A DNA stretch of 11,419 nt from Verrucomicrobiota bacterium (GTDB lineage: Bacteria > Verrucomicrobiota > Verrucomicrobiia > Opitutales > UBA2995). Below the pieces are notes generated by a model. The model had not been told where the DNA came from, ran no database searches, and worked only from the letters and a program-made list of their open reading frames with translations. The translations under genes were made by a program, and so were the position numbers. This document shows positions 1 to 11,419 of this stretch, one piece after another. The stretch is taken from contig JAPUIL010000530.1 of NCBI GenBank assembly GCA_027297085.1, positions 1-11,419 on the forward strand. The letters are read 5' to 3'. Each line of letters begins with the position of its first letter. Positions within the stretch are counted from its first letter, which is position 1.

Positions 1-1059
1 CATCGGGCACTCCTTGCTTCTGGTAAAATCGATTCCCGTATTGTGCATACAGGCCAGCACTATGACGAAAAGATGAGCGACATCTTTTTCAAGCAATTGG
101 GATTGCCAGAGCCGCACGTCTACATGGGAATCGGCAGCGGAAGCCACTCCGAACAGACCGGAAAAGTGATGATCGGTTTTGAAAAGGTTTTAGAAGAAGA
201 AAGCCCTGATCTCGTGATTGTAGTTGGCGACGTTAACTCGACTTTGGCTTGCAGTATCACCGCCGTTAAATGCGGCATTCTGGTGGCGCACGTGGAGGCG
301 GGACTTCGCAGTTTCGACCGGGGCATGCCGGAAGAAATCAACCGGATGGTTACAGACCGCATATCAGATTATCTTTTTGTCACAGAACAAAGTGGTATCG
401 ATAACTTGGAGAAGGAGGGCGTACCGTCCGAGCAGATCTTCATGGTTGGAAATGTAATGATCGACTCCCTGATCCAATTTCGCGAAAAAGCCTCCGAGTC
501 CACAATATTGGAGAGTTTGGGAATAGCCGGCAGACCATTCGCACTGATGACTCTTCACCGGCCATCGAACGTGGATCAAAAAGATACACTGATAGAACTT
601 CTCAGAATCGTGGAAAACACCGCGAATCAAATCCACTTGGTTTTTCCAATGCACCCTCGCACGCGAAAACAGCTTGAAACGTTTGGTCTGCTAGCGCAAC
701 TGACGAGCATCGACAACGTAACGCTCACAGAGCCTCTCGGCTATTTGGAATTTTTACGACTCATGGATTCAGCGAAGGCTGTGATAACAGATTCAGGAGG
801 AATTCAGGAAGAGACTACTTACCTGCAAGTGCCATGCCTGACTTTGCGCGATAACACAGAACGCCCGATAACCGTTACTTCCGGCACCAACGAGCTGCTT
901 CCAGTCGATCATAGGATCGTTAGCCAGAGACTTAGCGGTATACTTGAAGACAAGGAAGTGGAATCGAGCATTCCCCCACTCTGGGATGGAAAAGCATCTG
1001 AGCGCATCACTAAATGCATTCTAGAAATCCTGAACAACCGAACACGACAAACCAGGTGA
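1..1059 (+). CDS. wecB: UDP-N-acetylglucosamine 2-epimerase (non-hydrolysing), 5'-partial
   Basis: This enzyme would interconvert UDP-GlcNAc and UDP-ManNAc in the cytoplasm, feeding ManNAc-type sugars into surface polysaccharide. The frame is open from base 1, and the first codons (HRALLASG...) precede the internal GTG at 43, so the true start is upstream. Probably 25-30 residues are missing, including the GTRPE-type N-terminal motif. Visible family signatures are TGQHYDE, GDVNSTLA, HVEAGLRSFD followed by MPEEINR, VGNVMIDSL, TLHRPSNVD, DSGGIQEE, and the UDP-binding RDNTERPITV followed by GTNEL. These match the WecB/MnaA family (COG0381) rather than hydrolysing NeuC/SiaA types. The stop is TGA at 1057-1059. 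It is the first visible gene of a packed glycan cluster, and the next gene starts within or just after its end. The family call is secure. The symbol is by family, and the final sugar (ManNAc, ManNAcA or another) is unknown. Confidence 0.93.
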   Translation, partial: HRALLASGKIDSRIVHTGQHYDEKMSDIFFKQLGLPEPHVYMGIGSGSHSEQTGKVMIGFEKVLEEESPDLVIVVGDVNSTLACSITAVKCGILVAHVEAGLRSFDRGMPEEINRMVTDRISDYLFVTEQSGIDNLEKEGVPSEQIFMVGNVMIDSLIQFREKASESTILESLGIAGRPFALMTLHRPSNVDQKDTLIELLRIVENTANQIHLVFPMHPRTRKQLETFGLLAQLTSIDNVTLTEPLGYLEFLRLMDSAKAVITDSGGIQEETTYLQVPCLTLRDNTERPITVTSGTNELLPVDHRIVSQRLSGILEDKEVESSIPPLWDGKASERITKCILEILNNRTRQTR

Positions 1060-1070
1060 CACACAACAGG

Positions 1071-2819
1071 ATGGAAAAGTCAAAGGACTCCATAGACAAG
1101 ATTCGGTCCAAGTGGTGGACCGTTCTCGGAGTAATCCTACTGCTGGGGTTTATGGTATTTCAGGCAATTAGCAGCTTGCGTCAAAAGTCGGTCACGACCG
1201 ATGAGATCATGTACATAGCAGCCGGATACTACCATCTCGAGACTGGCGACTTTCGTTTAAACATGACGAACACCCCGCTCATGAAGATGCTGACTGCTCT
1301 TCCGGTAAAGCTCACAGGAGCAGAACTTCCACCAATGGAAGGTAATCCGGGTAAATGGAATTTGATTGAGCAATGGAAATATTCACGTGAGTTTCATTAC
1401 GGGAATTCTGTCAGTGCCGACCGGATACTATTTATGGCGAGGATGACCGTGGTGTTCCTGGCGGTGGTCTTGGGGATCTATGTTTTCCGATGGAGCCGAG
1501 AGCTGTTTGGGCTCAGAGGCGCATTCCTCTCACTATTTCTTTTTAGTTTCAGCCCTAACATACTAGCCCATGCACGACTTGCGAGTCAGGACTTTGGGCT
1601 CGCTGCCTTCATGCTGTTTTCAACGTATTATTTTTGGCAATACATGAAGAGCCCCAGATTGGGGACATTGATTCTATGTGGAATCCTGGCCGGTTGTGCG
1701 TTTATGATAAAAACCACAGCTATGTTTCTGGCCCCGATATTTGGAGCATTCATTCTGATTTGTATAGTGCTAAACAATGGTTTGGGAATTGACTCGAGAT
1801 TCCCGTATGTGAATGGAGGCGAAAAAAGCCTGGAACGCCGCGACCAAGTCATAACCGCCATTTTCTCGTTGGGCATCATTGGCCTGCTCACGTTATTGGT
1901 GATAAATCTTGGTTACGGGTTTCAAGGTTCATTTCGACCCCTTCCCCTACCAGAGCCATTCATCACGATGTTAAAGACTCAGAAGGGCACCGTTTCTAAT
2001 CTGGGAGGCATATACTTTGCCGGGAAGCTTCACCCTGATGGATTATGGTATCTGACTCTGGTATCTTTCCTTATCAAGGTTCCGATTCCTTTTTTGATTT
2101 TGCTTGGCGTGGCGCTCGCTGGGCTTGCTGTCAGATGCAGGCAGTTGAGGTGTGAATGGCTTTTGATTGTATTTGTGGGGGTGCTCATCTTTACATTTTC
2201 ATTTCTAATTAAAAGCGGAACCGGTCTCCGCTATTCACTGGGAGTATTTCCTTTCCTCCATGTTCTTGCGGGGAGTTTTTGGAAGATTCCGTGGCAGCGA
2301 AGGTATGTAAACACCGGATTGCTGTTCGTACTGGGTCTGTGGTATCTGGTAGGCAGCTTAGGAATACATCCCCATTACCTGGCCTACTTCAATGAGAGTG
2401 TCGGTGGAGCGAAGAACGGTTACAAATATCTTACGGATGCGAATCTGGATTGGGGGCAAGATTTGAAAGGACTTTCTAACTACATGCATGAAAAAGGCCT
2501 GGAACAAATCAACCTTGGCTACTTTGGAAGTGCTGACGCGGATTACTATGGAATCAACTATAAGTATTTACCTTCCGTTGGATTGAGGCCGATTGAAGAA
2601 GATGAGCTTTGGTGGTATGAGATGAAAAAACCTCAGCCTCGCATCGAGCCGGCACCGGGAACTTATGCAATCAGCTCATCCTTGATCGCGCGACCGGTTT
2701 GGATGAATAAAATTTTCCCCGACACTTATGAGGCGTTTCGGGATCGGGAACCGGATGCCCAGATCGGCCATTCAATTTTGATATTTAATATTACGGAAAC
2801 GGAAGTTTTGAAACAGTGA
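1071..2819 (+). CDS. PMT/ArnT-like GT-C membrane glycosyltransferase
   Basis: This polytopic protein of 582 residues probably transfers a sugar from a polyprenyl-phosphate donor to an acceptor on the periplasmic face. A first membrane helix (about residues 17-34) is followed by the extracytoplasmic loop with TTDE (Asp44-Glu45), then GYYHLETGDFRLNM and NTPLMKMLTALP. The acidic pair after helix 1 is the hallmark of PMT/ArnT-type GT-C enzymes. More than eight hydrophobic segments follow (for example about 122-138, 150-165, 175-190, 200-235). A soluble C-terminal stretch contains HPHYLAYFNE, ANLDWGQDL and YFGSADADYYGI, a pattern shared by bacterial phospholipid carrier-dependent glycosyltransferases. 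The start is uncertain. ATG 1071 is used here. GTG 1056 would overlap the wecB stop as GTGA, and ATG 1014 would overlap by 46 bases. None has a clear ribosome site. Family confidence is good; donor and acceptor are unknown. Confidence 0.85.
   Translation: MEKSKDSIDKIRSKWWTVLGVILLLGFMVFQAISSLRQKSVTTDEIMYIAAGYYHLETGDFRLNMTNTPLMKMLTALPVKLTGAELPPMEGNPGKWNLIEQWKYSREFHYGNSVSADRILFMARMTVVFLAVVLGIYVFRWSRELFGLRGAFLSLFLFSFSPNILAHARLASQDFGLAAFMLFSTYYFWQYMKSPRLGTLILCGILAGCAFMIKTTAMFLAPIFGAFILICIVLNNGLGIDSRFPYVNGGEKSLERRDQVITAIFSLGIIGLLTLLVINLGYGFQGSFRPLPLPEPFITMLKTQKGTVSNLGGIYFAGKLHPDGLWYLTLVSFLIKVPIPFLILLGVALAGLAVRCRQLRCEWLLIVFVGVLIFTFSFLIKSGTGLRYSLGVFPFLHVLAGSFWKIPWQRRYVNTGLLFVLGLWYLVGSLGIHPHYLAYFNESVGGAKNGYKYLTDANLDWGQDLKGLSNYMHEKGLEQINLGYFGSADADYYGINYKYLPSVGLRPIEEDELWWYEMKKPQPRIEPAPGTYAISSSLIARPVWMNKIFPDTYEAFRDREPDAQIGHSILIFNITETEVLKQ
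2801..2805 (+). promoter_or_regulatory. Ribosome binding site deciding a GTG start
   Basis: GGAAG lies 10 bases before GTG 2816, inside the end of the glycosyltransferase gene. It supports the GTG start that overlaps the upstream TGA by four bases. The alternative ATG at 2858 has only a weak purine stretch before it. Confidence 0.5.
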
Positions 2820-5524
2820 GTCGATCCACTGAAATTGAGTCAGAAACTGGACCGCAAATGAATCTGGGGAAGGTAGATTTTTCTAACGAAAAACCCAGTT
2901 TTACCGTACATGTGGATTTGGACGGTGCGCGCCAGATCTTTGAAGTCCATGGAATTCAATATGACTACAAAGATGATCCACTATTTGAAAGCGGCCTGAA
3001 GAACACACTGGATCTTTTTGATGAGTATCGGATCAAAGCAGTCTTGTTTACCATCGCGGATGATCTGAAAGATGGACGAAAACGTGAATTGTTAGAAGAA
3101 GCGGTCTTACGCGGCCATGAAATTGCATCCCACAGTGTAACCCACAGACGGTTGACGCAGCTTAGTCTTGAGGAGAAGCGGGGCGAGATCGCCGAAAGCA
3201 AACGTCTGCTCGAATCCAGTCTCAATGTTTCGGTGAGGGGATTTCGTGCACCCCATTTTGCAATCGATCGAGAGTGCCTGGAGCTTTTAGACGAGTACGG
3301 ATACGAGTATGATTCTTCAGTATTTCCGACAGCCCGATATGCCAAGCTGCTGGAAGTGCCGATTGTGCCGTCGGCACCGCATATTCCTTTCTATGGGGCA
3401 AAGTTGCTTGAGCTTCCCCTGCCCTCATTTCGACCGCGTCCGTTTCCTTTCCATCCCTGCTACAGTTTGATCCTGGGTCAGACTTATTTCAGGGGTGGAT
3501 TGAAGAAATTCCGCCAATCGAATTTACCCCTGATGTTTTTGTTCCATTTAACGGACGTGGCGAATCCTCTCCCCGGTGACCGCTTGAAGAACTGGCGTTT
3601 GAAATTAATGACACTTTCCCATTTACGGGCAGATAAGAAGTTGGAAAAGTGCCGGAAGATGTTGGACAGTGTAACTGACCAATACAGCTATACCATTAAC
3701 AAGGACTTAGTCGAAAACGTGAAAGAAGATCTGAGAAAAAATAAAACGCTTACCTTAGCAATTAGCACTACCCATGAAACGGGCGCGGCTATCCTGGAAG
3801 GAGCAACGGTAAAGGCAGCGGTGAGCGAGGAACGGATGGATCGGGTCAAGTTCTCTACTCAATATCCGCCCGTGAGAAGCATCGAGGCAGCGATAAAGAC
3901 CGCAGGAGTGGACCCGCGAAAAATCGACCGGATTGTTGTGGCTGGATTGCCCTCGAGAAAGCTTTTCCCGAAATTGGCGCGGGGACAATGGAGAGACTTC
4001 ACGGAATTTCATGGGCTCAGCGACTATTTTCCGCACTTCAACAAGATTCTTTACCGGGCCTACTATTTCTATCGCAGCCTTGGCTACCGAGCTGTCCAAA
4101 AATATTTTCAAAAGAATTACGGCACGAAGCCTGAATTACATTTTGTAGAGCACCATCTTTGCCATGCGTCCAGTGTTTATCGGACTGCGCCTTTTGAGGA
4201 CGCCCTGATTGTAACTGCGGATGGAGTAGGTGACGAGTTGTCGCTCACCGTTTCTGAAGGACGCAACGGTAGGATCAAGCGGCTGAATGAAATTCCCTAT
4301 CCGCATTCGTTTGGACAATTTTACACTGCCTGTACGCAGATACTCGGTTTTAGAGGAGGCAGGCACGAGGGGAAAATCACGGGGCTGAGCGGATTCGGGA
4401 AACTGGACCCGGAATTGTATCGCAAAGTAAAAGAAACCATTCGAAAGAGCGGGCCGGATTTCACACTCGATAAACGCTATTACTCGGAAGGATTTGTTCG
4501 GGGGTTCTCACTTAAAAAATTGAGAAAGGGAGAAAACCTGTTCGAGGCACTACAATACCGTAACTACAAAAGTCCACTCAAGCGGCTCATCGATGGCTAT
4601 ACTCGAGAAGATGTGGCGGCTGTTTTTCAAACGATCCTTGAAGAAGAGATGATTGAGGCGGTTCGTCCTTTTGCCGAATCGACCGGACTAAAGAACCTGG
4701 CGCTCGCAGGGGGAATCTTTGCAAATGTTAAGTTGAACGACGTTCTCTTCCGTGCCCTTGGCATGAAGCAGGTATACATCTTCCCGCACATGGGAGACGG
4801 AGGCCTTTCGGTGGGCGCGGCTCTCGAGTTGCTGCAGGCGCGACCCAAGTCATTCGATTCAGTATACTGGGGACCATCCTTTACTGAAGAGGAGATGGAG
4901 TCGGCTCTAAAAGAGGTCACATCGGAGGGGCTGAGATATCGACGCGAACACAATATTGAAAAGACCGTAGCCTTTCACCTGGCGGAGAACAAAGTCATTG
5001 CACGTTTCAACGGGGCGATGGAATTTGGTCCTCGGGCATTGTGCAATCGATCTATTCTATACCAGGCATCGGATCCCAGCGCGAATAAATGGCTTAACGA
5101 TCGATTGAATCGGACTGAATTCATGCCTTTCGCTCCAGTGGCCCTGGAGGATAAGGCGAGTTTATTCTTTGAATCCATGGAAGGGACCGAGCACGCCTGC
5201 AAGTTCATGACTACGATTTTAAAGTGCACAGACTTTGCCAAGACTCGGTGTCCGGCTGTTGTGCACGTTGACGGGACGGCACGACCTCAATTGATTTCAG
5301 AAAGTATAAACCCGAGCGCTACGGCCATCTTGCGTCATTATGACAAACTCACTGGCGTTCCTCTTCTTGTGAATACCAGCTTTAATATGCATGAGGAACC
5401 CATTGTCTGCTCGCCCGAAGATGCAGTCCGGGCCTATCTTGATTCCAAGCTCGATTTCCTGGCGATGGGGCCATTCCTGGCTTGGTTGAAAGAGGAGGAT
5501 CCACCATCAGGAAAGCCATCTTGA
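2816..5524 (+). CDS. Fused NodB-like deacetylase / NodU-like O-carbamoyltransferase
   Basis: This is a single open frame of 902 residues. Residues about 28-270 form a polysaccharide deacetylase domain with all expected motifs: DLD (Asp34, Asp36), HSVTH (His106, His110), RAPH (144-147), YDSS (165-168) and a late His244 in FLFHLTD. A charged linker (about 255-308) leads to a full O-carbamoyltransferase (about 310-895). That part has a Kae1-like region with His320-Glu321, EER (338-340), HHLCHA (446-451), ADGVGD (Asp469), GG (632-633) and GDGG (Asp661), followed by the C-terminal region with EFGPRAL (736-742) and NTSFN (853-857). NodU/TobZ enzymes use carbamoyl phosphate and ATP. NodB enzymes remove N-acetyl groups from amino sugars. 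No signal peptide or membrane helix is seen, so it probably acts in the cytoplasm on a nucleotide- or lipid-linked sugar. The GTG start overlaps the previous stop, indicating coupling. The domain calls are firm; the shared substrate is inference. Confidence 0.93.
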   Translation: MSRSTEIESETGPQMNLGKVDFSNEKPSFTVHVDLDGARQIFEVHGIQYDYKDDPLFESGLKNTLDLFDEYRIKAVLFTIADDLKDGRKRELLEEAVLRGHEIASHSVTHRRLTQLSLEEKRGEIAESKRLLESSLNVSVRGFRAPHFAIDRECLELLDEYGYEYDSSVFPTARYAKLLEVPIVPSAPHIPFYGAKLLELPLPSFRPRPFPFHPCYSLILGQTYFRGGLKKFRQSNLPLMFLFHLTDVANPLPGDRLKNWRLKLMTLSHLRADKKLEKCRKMLDSVTDQYSYTINKDLVENVKEDLRKNKTLTLAISTTHETGAAILEGATVKAAVSEERMDRVKFSTQYPPVRSIEAAIKTAGVDPRKIDRIVVAGLPSRKLFPKLARGQWRDFTEFHGLSDYFPHFNKILYRAYYFYRSLGYRAVQKYFQKNYGTKPELHFVEHHLCHASSVYRTAPFEDALIVTADGVGDELSLTVSEGRNGRIKRLNEIPYPHSFGQFYTACTQILGFRGGRHEGKITGLSGFGKLDPELYRKVKETIRKSGPDFTLDKRYYSEGFVRGFSLKKLRKGENLFEALQYRNYKSPLKRLIDGYTREDVAAVFQTILEEEMIEAVRPFAESTGLKNLALAGGIFANVKLNDVLFRALGMKQVYIFPHMGDGGLSVGAALELLQARPKSFDSVYWGPSFTEEEMESALKEVTSEGLRYRREHNIEKTVAFHLAENKVIARFNGAMEFGPRALCNRSILYQASDPSANKWLNDRLNRTEFMPFAPVALEDKASLFFESMEGTEHACKFMTTILKCTDFAKTRCPAVVHVDGTARPQLISESINPSATAILRHYDKLTGVPLLVNTSFNMHEEPIVCSPEDAVRAYLDSKLDFLAMGPFLAWLKEEDPPSGKPS

Positions 5525-5549
5525 TCTCGATACTAAACAAGTTTTGCCA

Positions 5550-6557
5550 ATGAAACTTAAGTTATGGATTGGGATTATTGTCAGTGTGTTGCTGATGGGA
5601 TGGGTGCTATCCCGAGTCAACGTAGGCTTGCTCCTTGAATCGCTTGGGCAAATCAAAATCTTCCCTGTACTAATAGCGATCATTTGCCTTCTTTCCACGC
5701 AAATGATTAAAGCTTGGCGGTGGAAGTATTTGATGAATTCCATCAAACCGATGCCGACGGTAAATCTTCTTTCGCCCATGGTAATTGGAACCATGACGGA
5801 TATGATTCTTCCTGCTCGTGGAGGAGATGTGGTCCGAGCGTTCCTGATTGGTAACAAAGAAAAAGTAAGTAAGATGGCAACACTCGCCACGGTAGTGATT
5901 GAACGGATACTTGATTTGGCGACGATACTCATCATGTGCCTGGTAGTCCTCGTATGGATTCCTTTTTCCATTCCTCCCGAAGGCCAGGCGGTTTTCGCAA
6001 AGTTTCGTGAGATCATTCTCATCGTGGGTATTCTGTGCGTTTTGGCTGTTGCGGTGGTCGTATTCGTGACTTGGCGGGGAGAAAGATTGCAGAAACCTCT
6101 AGAACGATTCTTGGGCTTTCTACCTGAAAGGTTAAGGAGCCGTACGATGGATGTAGTCCGCAATTTTTCTTCCGGATTGGGCTCCCTTAAAAGCGGGCGA
6201 GACTTTTTGATGGTTTCTTTGATTTCGATGTTTCTTTGGTCAGTCTATGCATTGAGCAATTTCTTTATCCTGGACGCGTTTTCGATGTATTTGCCCTTCT
6301 ACTCGTCATTTATCCTGCTGTTCTTTCAGGTGCTAGGAGTCACACTTCCTTCCTCACCGGGATTTATCGGCACCTACCATGCCGCTGTTATCGCAGCATT
6401 TGCTTTGTTGGGGGTCTCGCACGAAGCGGCTGTCAGCGTTGCCTTAGTCATGCACGGAGCGTTCTTCATTCCCTATATTCTTGCAGGAATGGTTTTCCTT
6501 TGGATGGAAAACTTATCGATTCAGTCACTAAACACCTTGGTCTCATCAAAATCTTAG
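5550..6557 (+). CDS. LPG_synthase_TM / flippase-like polytopic membrane protein
   Basis: This 335-residue inner-membrane protein matches the lysylphosphatidylglycerol synthase TM-region family (UPF0104, related to YbhN and AglD). Signatures are AWRWKYLM (55-62), ILPARGGDVVRAFLIG (86-101), VVIERILDLATIL (115-127) and PSSPGFIGTYHAAV (267-280), with six to eight hydrophobic segments, the first at about 5-20. Such proteins occur in polysaccharide and glycolipid loci and are often described as flippase-like. The catalytic aminoacyl-transfer domain of MprF is absent, so it is not a lysyl-PG synthase. ATG 5550 is chosen because the membrane segment begins at once; TTG 5544 is two codons upstream. 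It begins 25 bases after the deacetylase-carbamoyltransferase stop with no clear ribosome site. From context it may move a lipid-linked sugar or assist the PMT-like transferase, which is inference. Confidence 0.85.
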   Translation: MKLKLWIGIIVSVLLMGWVLSRVNVGLLLESLGQIKIFPVLIAIICLLSTQMIKAWRWKYLMNSIKPMPTVNLLSPMVIGTMTDMILPARGGDVVRAFLIGNKEKVSKMATLATVVIERILDLATILIMCLVVLVWIPFSIPPEGQAVFAKFREIILIVGILCVLAVAVVVFVTWRGERLQKPLERFLGFLPERLRSRTMDVVRNFSSGLGSLKSGRDFLMVSLISMFLWSVYALSNFFILDAFSMYLPFYSSFILLFFQVLGVTLPSSPGFIGTYHAAVIAAFALLGVSHEAAVSVALVMHGAFFIPYILAGMVFLWMENLSIQSLNTLVSSKS

Positions 6558-7060: not shown

Positions 7061-7831
7061 CTAATAAACGCCGCGGTCGCTACTTTCCATGAAGTCGAGG
7101 AATAATTTGGCTTTCGGGTGGTTCGCGTAATCAGAGCTCAGCGCGGTTTCCATGGCCTGTTTCCGATTCAGACCTTCCCGATAGAAAGTCTTATAAAGGT
7201 ACTTTACTACCGTCATGTCTTCCTTGCTAAAATCCTGGCGCTCTAATCCGACCTTGTTAAAAAACTTAACCTCCGGATCGCGTCCGTCTATGAGCATGTA
7301 AGGAGGCACGTCTTTCACGGTCTTGGACATGCCGCCGACAAAACAATAGTCGCCAAACCGGCAATATTGATGCCCGGCGGCTCCCCAGGAAATGATGACG
7401 TGATTCCCGACCACGCAATGGCCAGCCAACGCGTTTTGACCGCTCATTATGAGATGGTCGCCAATCACGCAGTCATGCGCCACATGGGCATAAGCAAGAA
7501 AGACGTTGTGACTGCCGATTTCAGTAAAACCTCCGTCTTTGGTTCCGGAATGGATGGAGGTAAACTCGCGGAAGATGTTATTGTTTTTAACGCGAAGACC
7601 AGGTTTTCCACCGTCGAATTTCAGGTCCTGAGTTTTGGTGCCCACGCAGGCGTATGGAAAGACCTCATTCTCTTCTCCCAAAAAGGAATACCCTTCCACC
7701 GTGGCATGGTGATGGACCACAGTATTCTTGCCAACAGTGACCTCTGACCCGACAAATGCATAGGCGCCAATATCGGCACTCTCGTCAATAGCGGCACCGG
7801 GATCTACTATGGCCGTAGGATGAATACTCAT
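7061..7831 (-). CDS. lpxA: Acyl-ACP--UDP-N-acetylglucosamine O-acyltransferase LpxA
   Basis: LpxA catalyses the first step of lipid A synthesis, moving an R-3-hydroxyacyl group from ACP to the 3-OH of UDP-GlcNAc in the cytoplasm. The 256-residue length is normal. Hexapeptide left-handed beta-helix repeats begin at HPTAIVDPGAAI. Active-site positions known from E. coli are kept: His116 and His119 (the catalytic base, AHVAHDC), His138 (AGH), and His154-Gln155 (GHQ). The C-terminal helical part (VGLERQDFSKEDMTVVKYLYKTFYREG) is typical. The glycine that favours C14 acyl chains in E. coli (Gly173, in VGG) is present at Gly167, so a long hydroxyacyl chain is plausible. The coil before GHQ reads SWGAA where E. 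coli has GGMTAV. The gene starts 12 bases after lpxC-fabZ on the same strand, surely one operon. No strong ribosome site is seen; a GAGGA lies about 20 bases upstream inside lpxC-fabZ. Confidence 0.96.
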   Translation of the reverse strand: MSIHPTAIVDPGAAIDESADIGAYAFVGSEVTVGKNTVVHHHATVEGYSFLGEENEVFPYACVGTKTQDLKFDGGKPGLRVKNNNIFREFTSIHSGTKDGGFTEIGSHNVFLAYAHVAHDCVIGDHLIMSGQNALAGHCVVGNHVIISWGAAGHQYCRFGDYCFVGGMSKTVKDVPPYMLIDGRDPEVKFFNKVGLERQDFSKEDMTVVKYLYKTFYREGLNRKQAMETALSSDYANHPKAKLFLDFMESSDRGVY

Positions 7832-7843
7832 CGATAGTGCGTT

Positions 7844-9184
7844 TTATGAATCCTCATCGTCAACCAGGGCAAACATCAACTCTGAGGAAGATACGACCAC
7901 GCCATTGACTTTACAAACAGCTGAAGCGGTTCCGATCTTGTTGCCCCGAATTTTGAGAATCTTGGCTTCAATAACCAGTTGATCTCCCGGGATGACAATT
8001 TTGCGAAGCTTTACTTTGTCGGCATTGATAAAGAGCGGCACCTTGTTCTCTCCCCCACAGCGACGGAGCATAAGAATACCTGCCGTTTGGGCCATGGCTT
8101 CAATCTGCAATACGGCCGGCATGATGGGATTGCCCGGATAATGACCTGTAAAATGTGGTTCGTTGATCGTCACATTCTTCACAGCTGTCAACTCGGTATT
8201 GTCCTCCTTGATATCCAGGACACGATCCACCATCAGGAATGGATACCGATGCGGCAGGAGGTTGAGCAGTTCCTGAATATTGAGCTCGCTGGCATCGCCA
8301 ACCAATTCTTGTAGAGCCGCCTTTTTGGCCGGTTTCTTTTTAAGGACCTTGGTTTCGGCCACCATCTTTTCGTGGATGGAGCGAGTGAGCCTTGCGTTGA
8401 GCGCGTGGCCGGGAATAAGAGCCACGATATGAGCCTTGATCGGTTTCCCCAGTAGATAAATATCACCAATGATATCGAGAATCTTGTGGCGGACCATTTC
8501 ATCCCGAAAACGGAGAGGCTCCTTCGACAAGATCTTGTCGCCCTTGATTACCACTGCGCAATCGAGGCTACCTCCTTTGATCTTCCCCATTTTTAGAAGC
8601 GGTTCAATCTCCTCATAAATGGTAAAAGTCCGGGCAGAAGCAATCTGCGTGGCATACACATCGGGATCGATATCGACCGATAGGTGTTGAGTGTGCACCG
8701 CTTTCAGATCGGTGGATGTGCAGGTAATCTTAAATCCATCGTGCGGCAGAGCCACCAGGGAGCGATTCCCATTGGTCACCGAGACGGGTTCTTTCAAAAC
8801 GTAATACTCGCGCTCCTTATCTTGTTCGACTGGCTCGGCCTCCAGAATCATATTCAGGTAGGGTTTGGCGGAGCCATCAAATACGGGCAATTCGTTGCCA
8901 TCTACATCGACCAGCACATTGTCCACGCCCATACCGTTGAGCACACTCAAAAGGTGCTCGGTCATTCCCACTTTGGTATAACCGTCGGAAATGGTAGTGC
9001 TTCGGACGACCTCCGAAACGTTTTCAATGGACGCTTTAATTTCTGGTTTGCCGTAGAGGTCGACCCGCCGAATGACCACGCCGTGATCTACTGGAGCAGG
9101 CTTGATAGTCAGGGTCACCTCTTCGCCGGTGTGAACGGCTTTTCCTTTGGCGGTCACTTCTCGCAGAATAGACCTTTGCTTCAT
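7844..9184 (-). CDS. lpxC-fabZ: Bifunctional LpxC deacetylase / FabZ dehydratase fusion
   Basis: This 446-residue fusion carries two enzymes of linked pathways. Residues 1 to about 275 are LpxC, the Zn-dependent UDP-3-O-acyl-GlcNAc deacetylase that commits lipid A synthesis. Glu76-His77 ([10 protein letters not shown]), His233 and Asp237 ([10 protein letters not shown]) are the catalytic and metal residues, and His260 (GHALN) is also kept. A lysine-rich linker (about 276-292, [12 protein letters not shown]) joins it to FabZ (about 300-446), the 3-hydroxyacyl-ACP dehydratase, with [12 protein letters not shown], the active-site His348 (FTGHYPGNP) and Glu362 (QIEAMAQ). The fusion is established in Bacteroidota and some PVC bacteria. 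It may tune the use of hydroxyacyl-ACP between lipid A and phospholipids. One variation is MPAVL where most FabZ proteins have PGVL. The start at 9184 is backed by AAGGA nine bases before it. lpxA follows in the same operon. Confidence 0.97.
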
Positions 9185-9976: not shown

Positions 9977-11419
9977 TCAGAACAACCAGGGTCGCGCTTG
10001 TTTGATCGCAAGATCTCCATCGACGGTGATCTTATACTCAATTTCCATAGCAAACCGCTCTTCCGGATCGGGATTGTAGAGAATTTTGAACTCATCGTGG
10101 ATCGTTTTAAGCATCGGCCTTATTTGCGTCAGATATTGCTGTGTCATTAGTAATTGACCAGCTTCTACCTGATTTGAAAAGCGGACCACCGTAAAGATAT
10201 TGGAGTTATTTGCATCGAGCAGTATCTCCTCGGGAATCGATTGGGCATCGGGATTGGTAACAAGGTCCTCTCCGATCTGTGTATTGAAATAGTAATTACC
10301 CTCAGTCTGGTAAATCGGATCGTCGCTGACCGCTACACCGTTGGCTTGTTCGTCACTGAAATTCGGATGCAACAGCACACCCATGGCTGCGGCAAACTGG
10401 TCGATGCGGTAAAAGTCCCGCTCTTCATAAGCGCGAAAGTTCCAGAGACTGGCGAATACCTGCTTGATGGACTTCGAGAGATGGCCCTCGTAGGGATGAT
10501 GAGTAAAGGAATCGTAGAGCCCCGCCCCACTGAATCCGGGAAGGTCTTCATTGTTGGTACTGGAACGGCACCGGATGGATGTGCCCTCAGGAAATGATAG
10601 TTGCAGCGCCGACAGTGCATCAATCATCCAATCTGGCATCGCGCCGTCTTCAACCACCTCCCGGAAATCATCCAGCATCGCAATCCGGGTATCTACATCA
10701 GCCACAAAATCCGGATTTACCAACATATCGGCCACCACCGTATAGAAGTCGTTAAACTTCATAAACTCGTCGTAGAAATAGAAGGGTAGGCCAAAACCGT
10801 CTGGGATAACTCCCTCAGCGAAACCGAAGGTTCTAAGGGTGGCCAAGTTGGCCGCTTTCACCCCGAACGCGTCCGAATCATTGAATCCAATTCCTGAAAG
10901 CGGCCGAAACTCAGTTATCGACAGGTTCCGATCCGGAATCTGGGGTTCCGTTGGTCGAAGGTCCGCAAAATGCTCCTCTACTTCCGCCAAGGTGGCCTCT
11001 CGGATGTCATACCCATCTACCCGGACATTAAAATAAACATAATTTCCTATGAGATCGGCGATAACTTCATCTTCCAAAGCAGCTGGGATGTAGGCATTGG
11101 GAACACCGTCCTGAATTGCCCTGAGGTTCACATGGGAAAGTGGAGTCTGCGCAACCGTGGTAATCACCCCCGCGACGCGCGGCAATTCATTAGGCAGCGA
11201 GTCATAGATAACAATATCCCTCGTGGTCGGACGGTCATTCAAATTCATGTGCCGTAACAAACCGAATCCTTCCGCGATATTGAGTGGGAGGTAATTGACG
11301 CCAGCGAACAGATCCCCTTCCAACAAGATTGGAATTCGTGACGCATCATAGAGTTCCTTTTCTTGCCAGTATAATGGAAGAGCCGCGTTGGGCATTGGGT
11401 AGTAGGCAAAATTATTCTC
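9977..11419 (-). CDS. PPDK/glucan-water-dikinase-like protein, N-terminus outside window
   Basis: The frame stays open to the window edge. Codons before the Met at 11395 read ENNFAYYP, so the true start is beyond 11419. Numbering here is from that Met (472 residues seen). Residues about 60-135 form a phosphohistidine swivel domain with [19 protein letters not shown], where His88 is the expected phosphate carrier. Residues about 165-472 form a PPDK_N/PEP-synthase ATP-binding domain: [11 protein letters not shown] (Lys180), [11 protein letters not shown] (275-285), [10 protein letters not shown] (287-296), [16 protein letters not shown] (315-330), and a final IKQARPWLF. No PEP/pyruvate TIM barrel follows. 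The swivel-then-ATP order and the [15 protein letters not shown] stretch resemble plant glucan, water dikinase (swivel, then C-terminal nucleotide-binding domain), not PEP synthase. The protein is acidic. It probably phosphorylates an acceptor through phosphohistidine; the acceptor is unknown and likely recognised by the missing N-terminal part. Confidence 0.8.

Follow-up and report, generated by a model that had tools for sequence, protein, structure and literature searches.

A conserved fusion of a CE4-type deacetylase with a class III O-carbamoyltransferase, accompanied by sugar-pathway genes in several bacterial phyla

This report deals with one gene of an 11,419-nucleotide contig (JAPUIL010000530.1, assembly GCA_027297085.1) from a Verrucomicrobiota bacterium; the whole contig is hereafter called the window. 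The gene encodes a polysaccharide deacetylase domain of the CE4 family joined to a complete class III O-carbamoyltransferase. The same joined protein is found in distant bacterial groups, with both active sites intact, with a single origin and, usually, beside the same sugar genes, which makes a genuine two-step enzyme probable. Our preferred interpretation, to which we give a probability just short of one half (about 0.48), is that the protein is cytosolic and bifunctional, removing the N-acetyl group of an amino (uronic) sugar and adding an O-carbamoyl group to it; the sugar is probably lipid-linked, and the enzyme belongs to a conserved gene module.

Architecture and active sites of the fusion

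The initial annotation had read the gene as a single 902-residue frame joining the two activities (positions in Table 1), and this reading is borne out by Pfam. Residues 55-165 match Polysacc_deac_1 (PF01522; 68.2 bits against a gathering score of 23.1), residues 315-670 match Carbam_trans_N (PF02543; 163.5 against 24) and residues 721-888 match Carbam_trans_C (PF16861; 182.3 against 27). With PF02543 and PF16861 both above their gathering scores, the protein has the make-up (a Kae1-like plus a C-terminal domain) that defines a class III O-carbamoyltransferase. Homologues were sought with residues 1-310 among proteins of 0.55 to 1.75 times the full length. This gave 53 matches, 47 of which, including the window's own protein, have PF01522 together with PF02543, and 44 have PF16861 as well; the pair thus recurs in 46 other proteins. 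For an alignment of 40 fusions we started from the 48 best rows and omitted five short ones (P0003, P0030, P0036, P0037, P0044) as well as P0016, P0024 and P0042, for which no strict rule was applied. The other 39 rows are 45-69% identical to the window's protein, and the alignment runs unbroken across the domain junction. A frame error joining two genes, a danger raised at the outset, is ruled out by the 46 homologues. Apart from the state of the window's assembly (849 contigs, of which the window is C480, and 75.9% completeness) nothing speaks for an assembly or frame error, and with the junction continuous in 40 proteins we regard its probability as negligible.

The residues that had been named as evidence for intact motifs are all present, and nearly all of them are invariant in the 40-row alignment: D36, H106, H110, R144 and H244 in the deacetylase half, and H446, H447, H450, D469, D661, E736, G738-L742, N853-S855 and N857 in the carbamoyltransferase half. 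D34, A451 and F737 are kept in at least 90% of the rows, while the motif residues L448, C449 and F856 vary. In the first half we take these residues to be the catalytic Asp pair, the metal-binding H-x3-H, the Arg and the C-terminal His of CE4 enzymes. In the second, the predicted class III metal site of two His and two Asp (H446, H450, D469, D661) and the putative general-base His (H320) are present in 31 of 31 fusions. Conservation of both sets of residues makes it improbable that one half is atypical, whether because the CE4 domain takes off a formyl or some other acyl group, as ArnD does, or only binds, or because the carbamoyltransferase half uses another donor or acceptor. One position does vary: residue 765, which by an inferred numbering offset of 6 corresponds to K443 of TobZ, is Asn in the window and Lys in three of the 31 fusions. 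Since unfused relatives with the RTEFMPFAP motif vary here too, this is a subfamily trait, and we do not treat it as defining. The Kyte-Doolittle maximum over 19 residues is 1.07, too low for a signal peptide or a membrane segment, so we expect a cytosolic protein that works on an intermediate of biosynthesis.

Relation to known enzymes

The solved class III structures, TobZ, GdmN, NovN and VtdB, are 25-29% identical to the fusion, which differs from them by its additional N-terminal deacetylase and by RTEFMPFAP in place of the TobZ-type K-x-RE-x-RPFAP motif. For the deacetylase half the best NCBIfam match is the XrtA/PEP-CTERM polysaccharide deacetylase (TIGR03006), at 92.9 bits, far below the cut-off of 276.2. 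In a weak deacetylase tree the fusion falls outside the XrtA rows; its 22 fusion rows there require two label changes, owing to the long-branch row L148 (we number loci with L, homologues with P and contigs with C), and no sister group is inferred. A linkage to exosortases was considered as evidence and rejected: there are two in the window's genome, and they occur in four of five other fusion genomes, but also in 144 of the 194 phylum genomes.

Rhizobial NodB and NodU, two distinct proteins, carry out the same two types of reaction on an amino sugar, and the two halves had been described as NodB-like and NodU-like. The comparison is a loose one: the protein falls far short of the cut-offs of both Nod families (NodB, TIGR04243, 34.8 bits against 240; NodU, NF041651, 144.4 against 1000). 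The gene neighbours also differ, and no NodC-type name appears among the family matches of the window genes and of the L067 genes examined. A Nod-factor-type system, pairing a chitooligosaccharide deacetylase with a NodU carbamoyltransferase, shares with the fusion the order of reactions, NodB then NodU, known to us from general knowledge; we find it scarcely credible here. The suggestion that no enzyme of this architecture has been described agrees with our survey of open-licence papers: none of those listed by the searches describes PF01522 joined to a class III carbamoyltransferase in its title or the opening of its abstract.

Distribution and origin

Full fusions are present in seven of 80 loci, from the named strain Ferruginivarius sediminum, three "Deltaproteobacteria" metagenome-assembled genomes (MAGs), one Planctomycetota MAG and two Nitrospira MAGs, the named phyla being Pseudomonadota, Myxococcota, Planctomycetota and Nitrospirota. 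The check on conservation that had been proposed finds the fusion in several phyla. Two further loci, L033 (Planctomycetota) and L037 (Rhodothermia), match the fusions at 70-77% in a gene that is cut, with the deacetylase half outside the sequence, and a Rhodothermales protein (P0044) with both domains is among the 53 matches. Closer to the window the picture is different: no other match spans both halves among 88 relatives of its genome, and in 387 genomes of its phylum (threshold 1e-100, at most two candidates scored per genome) ten matched, only the window's own over both halves. The gene is, then, sporadic, and it probably moves between phyla.

A tree built from 104 carbamoyltransferase domains places every one of the 31 fusion rows on one side of a branch with a Shimodaira-Hasegawa-like approximate likelihood-ratio (SH-aLRT) support of 100. 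These rows comprise 26 of the 40 aligned proteins and five fusion loci; 16 loci of the Marinobacter type, along with the truncated or duplicate loci L020, L022, L023, L032, L033, L036, L037, L066 and L098 were omitted. A more careful tree of 66 carbamoyltransferase rows supports the fusion clade at 98/96. As judged from these trees, the fusions appear to have a single origin in one ancient gene fusion. Their nearest relatives are another matter. In the quick tree of 104 domains the fusions, a KSB1-type clade and a clade linked to a gene family that we call cl14 meet at one open fork (90), and in the careful tree the fusions fall outside the other sampled RTEFMPFAP rows (98/93). Because the two trees disagree, we have dropped the idea that the cl14-linked clade is the sister of the fusions, and call it only related.

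This related, unfused clade bears on the question of why the two domains are joined. In 34 of its 37 loci, about half of them from close Marinobacter relatives, the cl14 gene lies directly before the carbamoyltransferase gene (36 if two mis-started open reading frames (ORFs) are allowed for), with a 4-bp overlap in 26 of the 34; it is directly upstream in none of seven KSB1-type loci and none of 27 others, a few of which have little upstream sequence. By motif reading (DTEE, HLHPW, RYG, FHS) cl14 is deacetylase-like. Pfam gave no match for the L054 and L090 proteins, nor NCBIfam for that of L090, and of the 34 cl14 proteins only three are matched by the deacetylase profile of the fusion, at 24-25 bits. 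Elsewhere in 24 of the 37 loci another gene exceeds 50 bits with that profile; the one in L054 is a true XrtA deacetylase (416 bits, TIGR03006). The cl14-carbamoyltransferase pair is like the fusion in having the deacetylase-like part directly upstream and unlike it in consisting of two genes. To judge from these motifs, it is likely, though not firmly established, that the two enzyme types are coupled in unfused form as well. As a separate observation, Lys replaces the catalytic His in 18 of 21 rows of the cl14-clade carbamoyltransferases (L048, L054, L057, L090 and others). An apparent second fusion, of cl14 with the carbamoyltransferase in L087 and L107, proved to be an artefact of misplaced ORF starts.

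One may argue from such adjoining or overlapping separate genes, which require common expression only, that each of the two domains modifies a different sugar within one glycan, the fusion merely tying their amounts. Deacetylase domains of this kind are moreover promiscuous in fusion, being joined also to PF02350, PF03808 or PF00535 (P0049-P0053). We nevertheless think this unlikely, and rank it after the nucleotide-sugar alternative discussed below: a single origin, with retention in four named phyla and in the window's genome, suggests more than co-expression, although channelling is not thereby proved. In two of the proteins just mentioned, P0049 and P0050, the deacetylase domains carry PF11959; their fusion partners are a WecB-type epimerase (PF02350) and a PF03808 domain, presumably of the WecG/TagA type.

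A conserved gene module

Neighbours were counted by hidden Markov model and BLAST searches, in nine fusion loci and the 71 other loci of the 80. One of them is a protein of about 570 residues with a uronate lyase/epimerase fold, present in eight of the nine fusion loci and in none of the 71 others, nor in 29 further short loci. Its assignment to PF25840 is a precomputed annotation; the Pfam search itself returned no match for three of the lyase-fold proteins. An AsnB-like protein is likewise found in eight of the nine loci, and a family 2 glycosyltransferase (GT2) in seven, the other two loci beginning inside the fusion. A UPF0104/LPG_synthase_TM protein accompanies the fusion in seven loci and a WecB/WbpI-family epimerase in four; both also occur in the window, and neither in any of the 71. 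The order in L031 is GT2, fusion, flippase-like gene, lyase-fold gene, AsnB. A relative of the window's membrane glycosyltransferase is present in L031 on the opposite strand, and L034, L035, L038 and L067 carry a different multi-helix membrane protein. Within the window's genome, contig C65 has a GT2 gene (61% to that of L031) adjoining a lyase-fold gene (66% to that of L037), cut by the contig end. A gene for a B12-binding radical SAM protein, itself cut at a contig end, lies beside these two (L119: 2058-3848).

The association of fusion and lyase-fold protein is also seen in an independent way. Searches with the lyase-fold family gave 961 matches among 7997 scored, with 120 among the matches listed, and 18 of 47 rows of the fusion search (P0002-P0048, one of which, P0037, has no carbamoyltransferase domain) sit on a contig of exactly the same size as one of those 120. 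With shifted contig sizes as a control, the mean was 0.175 coincidences and the maximum 2. Together the neighbours point to the synthesis of an envelope glycan or glycolipid, and they support the view that both halves serve one sugar pathway, of which the cl14-carbamoyltransferase pairs give a weaker hint; that both act on one residue is a further, proposed step. In a same-order relative (G402:C47; L148: 8404-12752) a lyase-fold gene lies near a formyltransferase-like gene, followed by an overlapping stand-alone deacetylase that weakly resembles that of the fusion (70 bits); the 19 kb read at this locus gave no match to a carbamoyltransferase profile.

Proposed pathway and its main rival

We propose that an epimerase of the WecB/WbpI family would supply a manno-configured UDP sugar, probably a uronate, which the GT2 would load onto polyprenyl-phosphate or another lipid carrier. 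The CE4 domain of the fusion would then strip an N-acyl group, most likely N-acetyl, from the amino sugar. Its class III domain would make carbamoyl-adenylate from carbamoyl phosphate and ATP and move the carbamoyl to a hydroxyl, most likely on the same sugar. The lyase/epimerase-fold protein and the AsnB-like (perhaps WbpS-like) amidotransferase may act on the uronate part, after which the UPF0104 protein would flip the sugar and the membrane glycosyltransferase transfer it outside. The two activities, the lipid carrier, the order of these steps and the final acceptor are inferred; the sugar itself may be a 2,3-diamino-hexuronic acid or something related to it.

A lipid-linked substrate is favoured, with a UDP sugar as the main rival, on the grounds of the GT2s, of a GT-C partner and of the gpgSDF precedent. 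The GT2s bear a resemblance to the ArnC/PgfS type, at scores far short of those family cut-offs (62-79 bits with the ArnC model, cut-off 529), and by a crude scan those of L031 and of the window's genome have two C-terminal helices. GT-C enzymes generally use polyprenyl-phosphate sugars. In Pseudomonas aeruginosa the gpgSDF genes, for GlcN-phosphatidylglycerol, form a comparable trio: a glycosyltransferase and a cytoplasmic deacetylase act on lipid-linked GlcNAc, and a UPF0104 protein is the predicted flippase (PMC12713373). That system uses a GT4 and a COG3233 deacetylase, the fusion module a GT2 and a CE4 domain, and the word "carbamoyl" occurs 0 times in PMC12713373.

According to the rival hypothesis, the fusion acts on a nucleotide sugar: UDP-2,3-diacetamido-hexuronic acid would undergo a VimE-like de-N-acetylation, followed by O-carbamoylation, AsnB-like amidation and FemAB/VimA-like aminoacylation. 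This would resemble the Wbp/Vim pathway for linking sugars of the type IX secretion system, VimE-, FemAB/VimA-, AsnB/WbpS- and WbpI-like proteins of which accompany some fusions; the main text of PMC7468200 on that pathway has "carbamoyl" 0 times. Several observations speak for it. L034, L038 and L067 encode joined VimE-like and FemAB-like proteins together with a Gfo/Idh oxidoreductase and, in two of them, a hexapeptide acetyltransferase; the latter two enzymes we take to be WbpB- and WbpD-like. A VimE-like match occurs in six of six fusion genomes searched, compared with six of 194 phylum genomes (the window's own included). Contig C765 of the window's genome (L120: 5895-10438) carries a hexapeptide-type acetyltransferase (56% to that of L038), a DegT aminotransferase and a VimE-like gene, the first two of which are presumably WbpD- and WbpE-like. 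Finally, among solved structures the window's epimerase is almost as near to a UDP-2,3-diacetamido-glucuronate 2-epimerase (8sxy, 286 bits) as to its best match, named UDP-GlcNAc 2-epimerase (4neq, 296), with 1f6d, presumably the WecB of Escherichia coli, at 151; such scores would suit GlcNAc or a uronate and do not decide between them.

We hold the nucleotide-sugar hypothesis to be unlikely all the same, although the most serious of the rivals. A lipid-linked sugar agrees better with partners such as the GT2, the flippase-like protein and the membrane glycosyltransferase, and a VimE-like protein is already present in these genomes. All six matches to the VimE model (NF053580, cut-off 440) are under the cut-off: the window's genome reaches 433.2 bits and the five others 65-95, while the next best of the 194 phylum genomes has 100 and weak matches occur in two of 14 control genomes. 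The VimE/FemAB protein itself is present in three of ten fusion loci as retrieved. In these joined proteins (L067 1093-3624; L034 2017-4659; by similarity also L038 1115-3646) the VimE-like and FemAB/VimA-like parts would represent two successive Wbp/Vim steps.

The interpretation as a lipid-linked, two-step pathway has its own difficulties, which we would like to acknowledge. The activities of the fusion and their substrate are predictions. With a VimE-like match in all six fusion genomes, a Wbp-type sugar may already have its deacetylase, so that the target of the fusion's deacetylase may be a different acyl group or a different sugar. Not all neighbours are specific: of the 71 other loci, 34 contain AsnB-like genes and eight contain GT2 relatives, and the lyase-fold family extends beyond the fusion (16 of 387 phylum genomes at E 1e-20, against one of 387). 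In the window's genome the GT2 and lyase-fold genes sit on another contig than the fusion, and the search of that genome yielded no AsnB closely similar to the ones in the fusion loci. The crude scan gave one C-terminal helix for the GT2 of L034 and none for those of L035, L036, L038 and L067, and the membrane protein placed as the transferase in L034, L035, L038 and L067 has no Pfam match (L067 protein). Three AsnB-like proteins score above the cut-off of the general asparagine synthase model (491-527 bits against 267.1) and fall short of that of TIGR03108 (511-518 against 816.9), the family in which PMC7468200 places WbpS. The best solved match of the epimerase, 4neq, also bears the name of a UDP-GlcNAc 2-epimerase.

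Other features of the window

The epimerase, membrane glycosyltransferase, fusion and flippase-like genes (Table 1) all run in one direction; the GTG start of the fusion overlaps the stop of the membrane glycosyltransferase by 4 bp, and the flippase-like gene begins 19 bp downstream of the fusion. The same contig carries lipid A genes, an LpxC-FabZ bifunctional gene (7844-9184, minus strand) adjoining lpxA (7061-7831). An LpxC-FabZ relative named Lentimonas (62% identity), like the frequency of exosortases in the phylum, tentatively suggests Verrucomicrobiota as the host. At 9977-11419 (minus strand) a gene cut by the contig end encodes a protein with an ATP-binding PPDK_N domain at its C-terminal end and an N-terminal part without assignment. 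The window contains no tRNA and no Rfam match at gathering score.

Table 1. Positions in the window of the fusion gene, its two domains and the genes on either side
Feature	Position	Strand	Basis and remarks
Non-hydrolysing UDP-HexNAc 2-epimerase, WecB/WbpI family	1..1059	+	TIGR00236, 320.6 bits against 210.15; 5' end cut by contig end
Membrane glycosyltransferase, PMT_2/PMT, GT-C type	1014..2819	+	Pfam; start may lie later
Fusion gene, CE4 deacetylase and class III O-carbamoyltransferase	2816..5524	+	One intact 902-residue frame, GTG start
Deacetylase domain, about residues 28-310	2897..3745	+	D34, D36, H106, H110, R144, H244
Carbamoyltransferase domain, about residues 311-894	3746..5497	+	H320, H446, H450, D469, D661, S855
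UPF0104/LPG_synthase_TM flippase-like membrane protein	5544..6557	+	Pfam; TIGR00374, 87.3 bits against 43.2

Implications

The fusion offers a single polypeptide in which sugar de-N-acylation and O-carbamoylation can be studied together, and the gene group around it (GT2, fusion, flippase-like, lyase/epimerase-fold and amidotransferase genes) is present in a named strain, Ferruginivarius sediminum WD2A32. A bolder view, which we consider rather doubtful but worth stating, is that the fusion marks an undescribed, horizontally spread envelope-sugar pathway. Its product would be a lipid-linked amino-uronamide that is O-carbamoylated and whose amine is either free or re-acylated, the lyase-fold protein would be a cytosolic uronate C5-epimerase, and the sugar would serve as the head group of a surface glycolipid or, as in Wbp/Vim, as the anchor of exported proteins. 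The proposed pathway also offers a likely role for a large family of unnamed lyase-fold proteins. To our knowledge, sugars bearing a carbamoyl group have been described chiefly in Nod factors, antibiotics and some lipopolysaccharide cores; if the proposal is true, this list would gain a new envelope sugar from environmental phyla.
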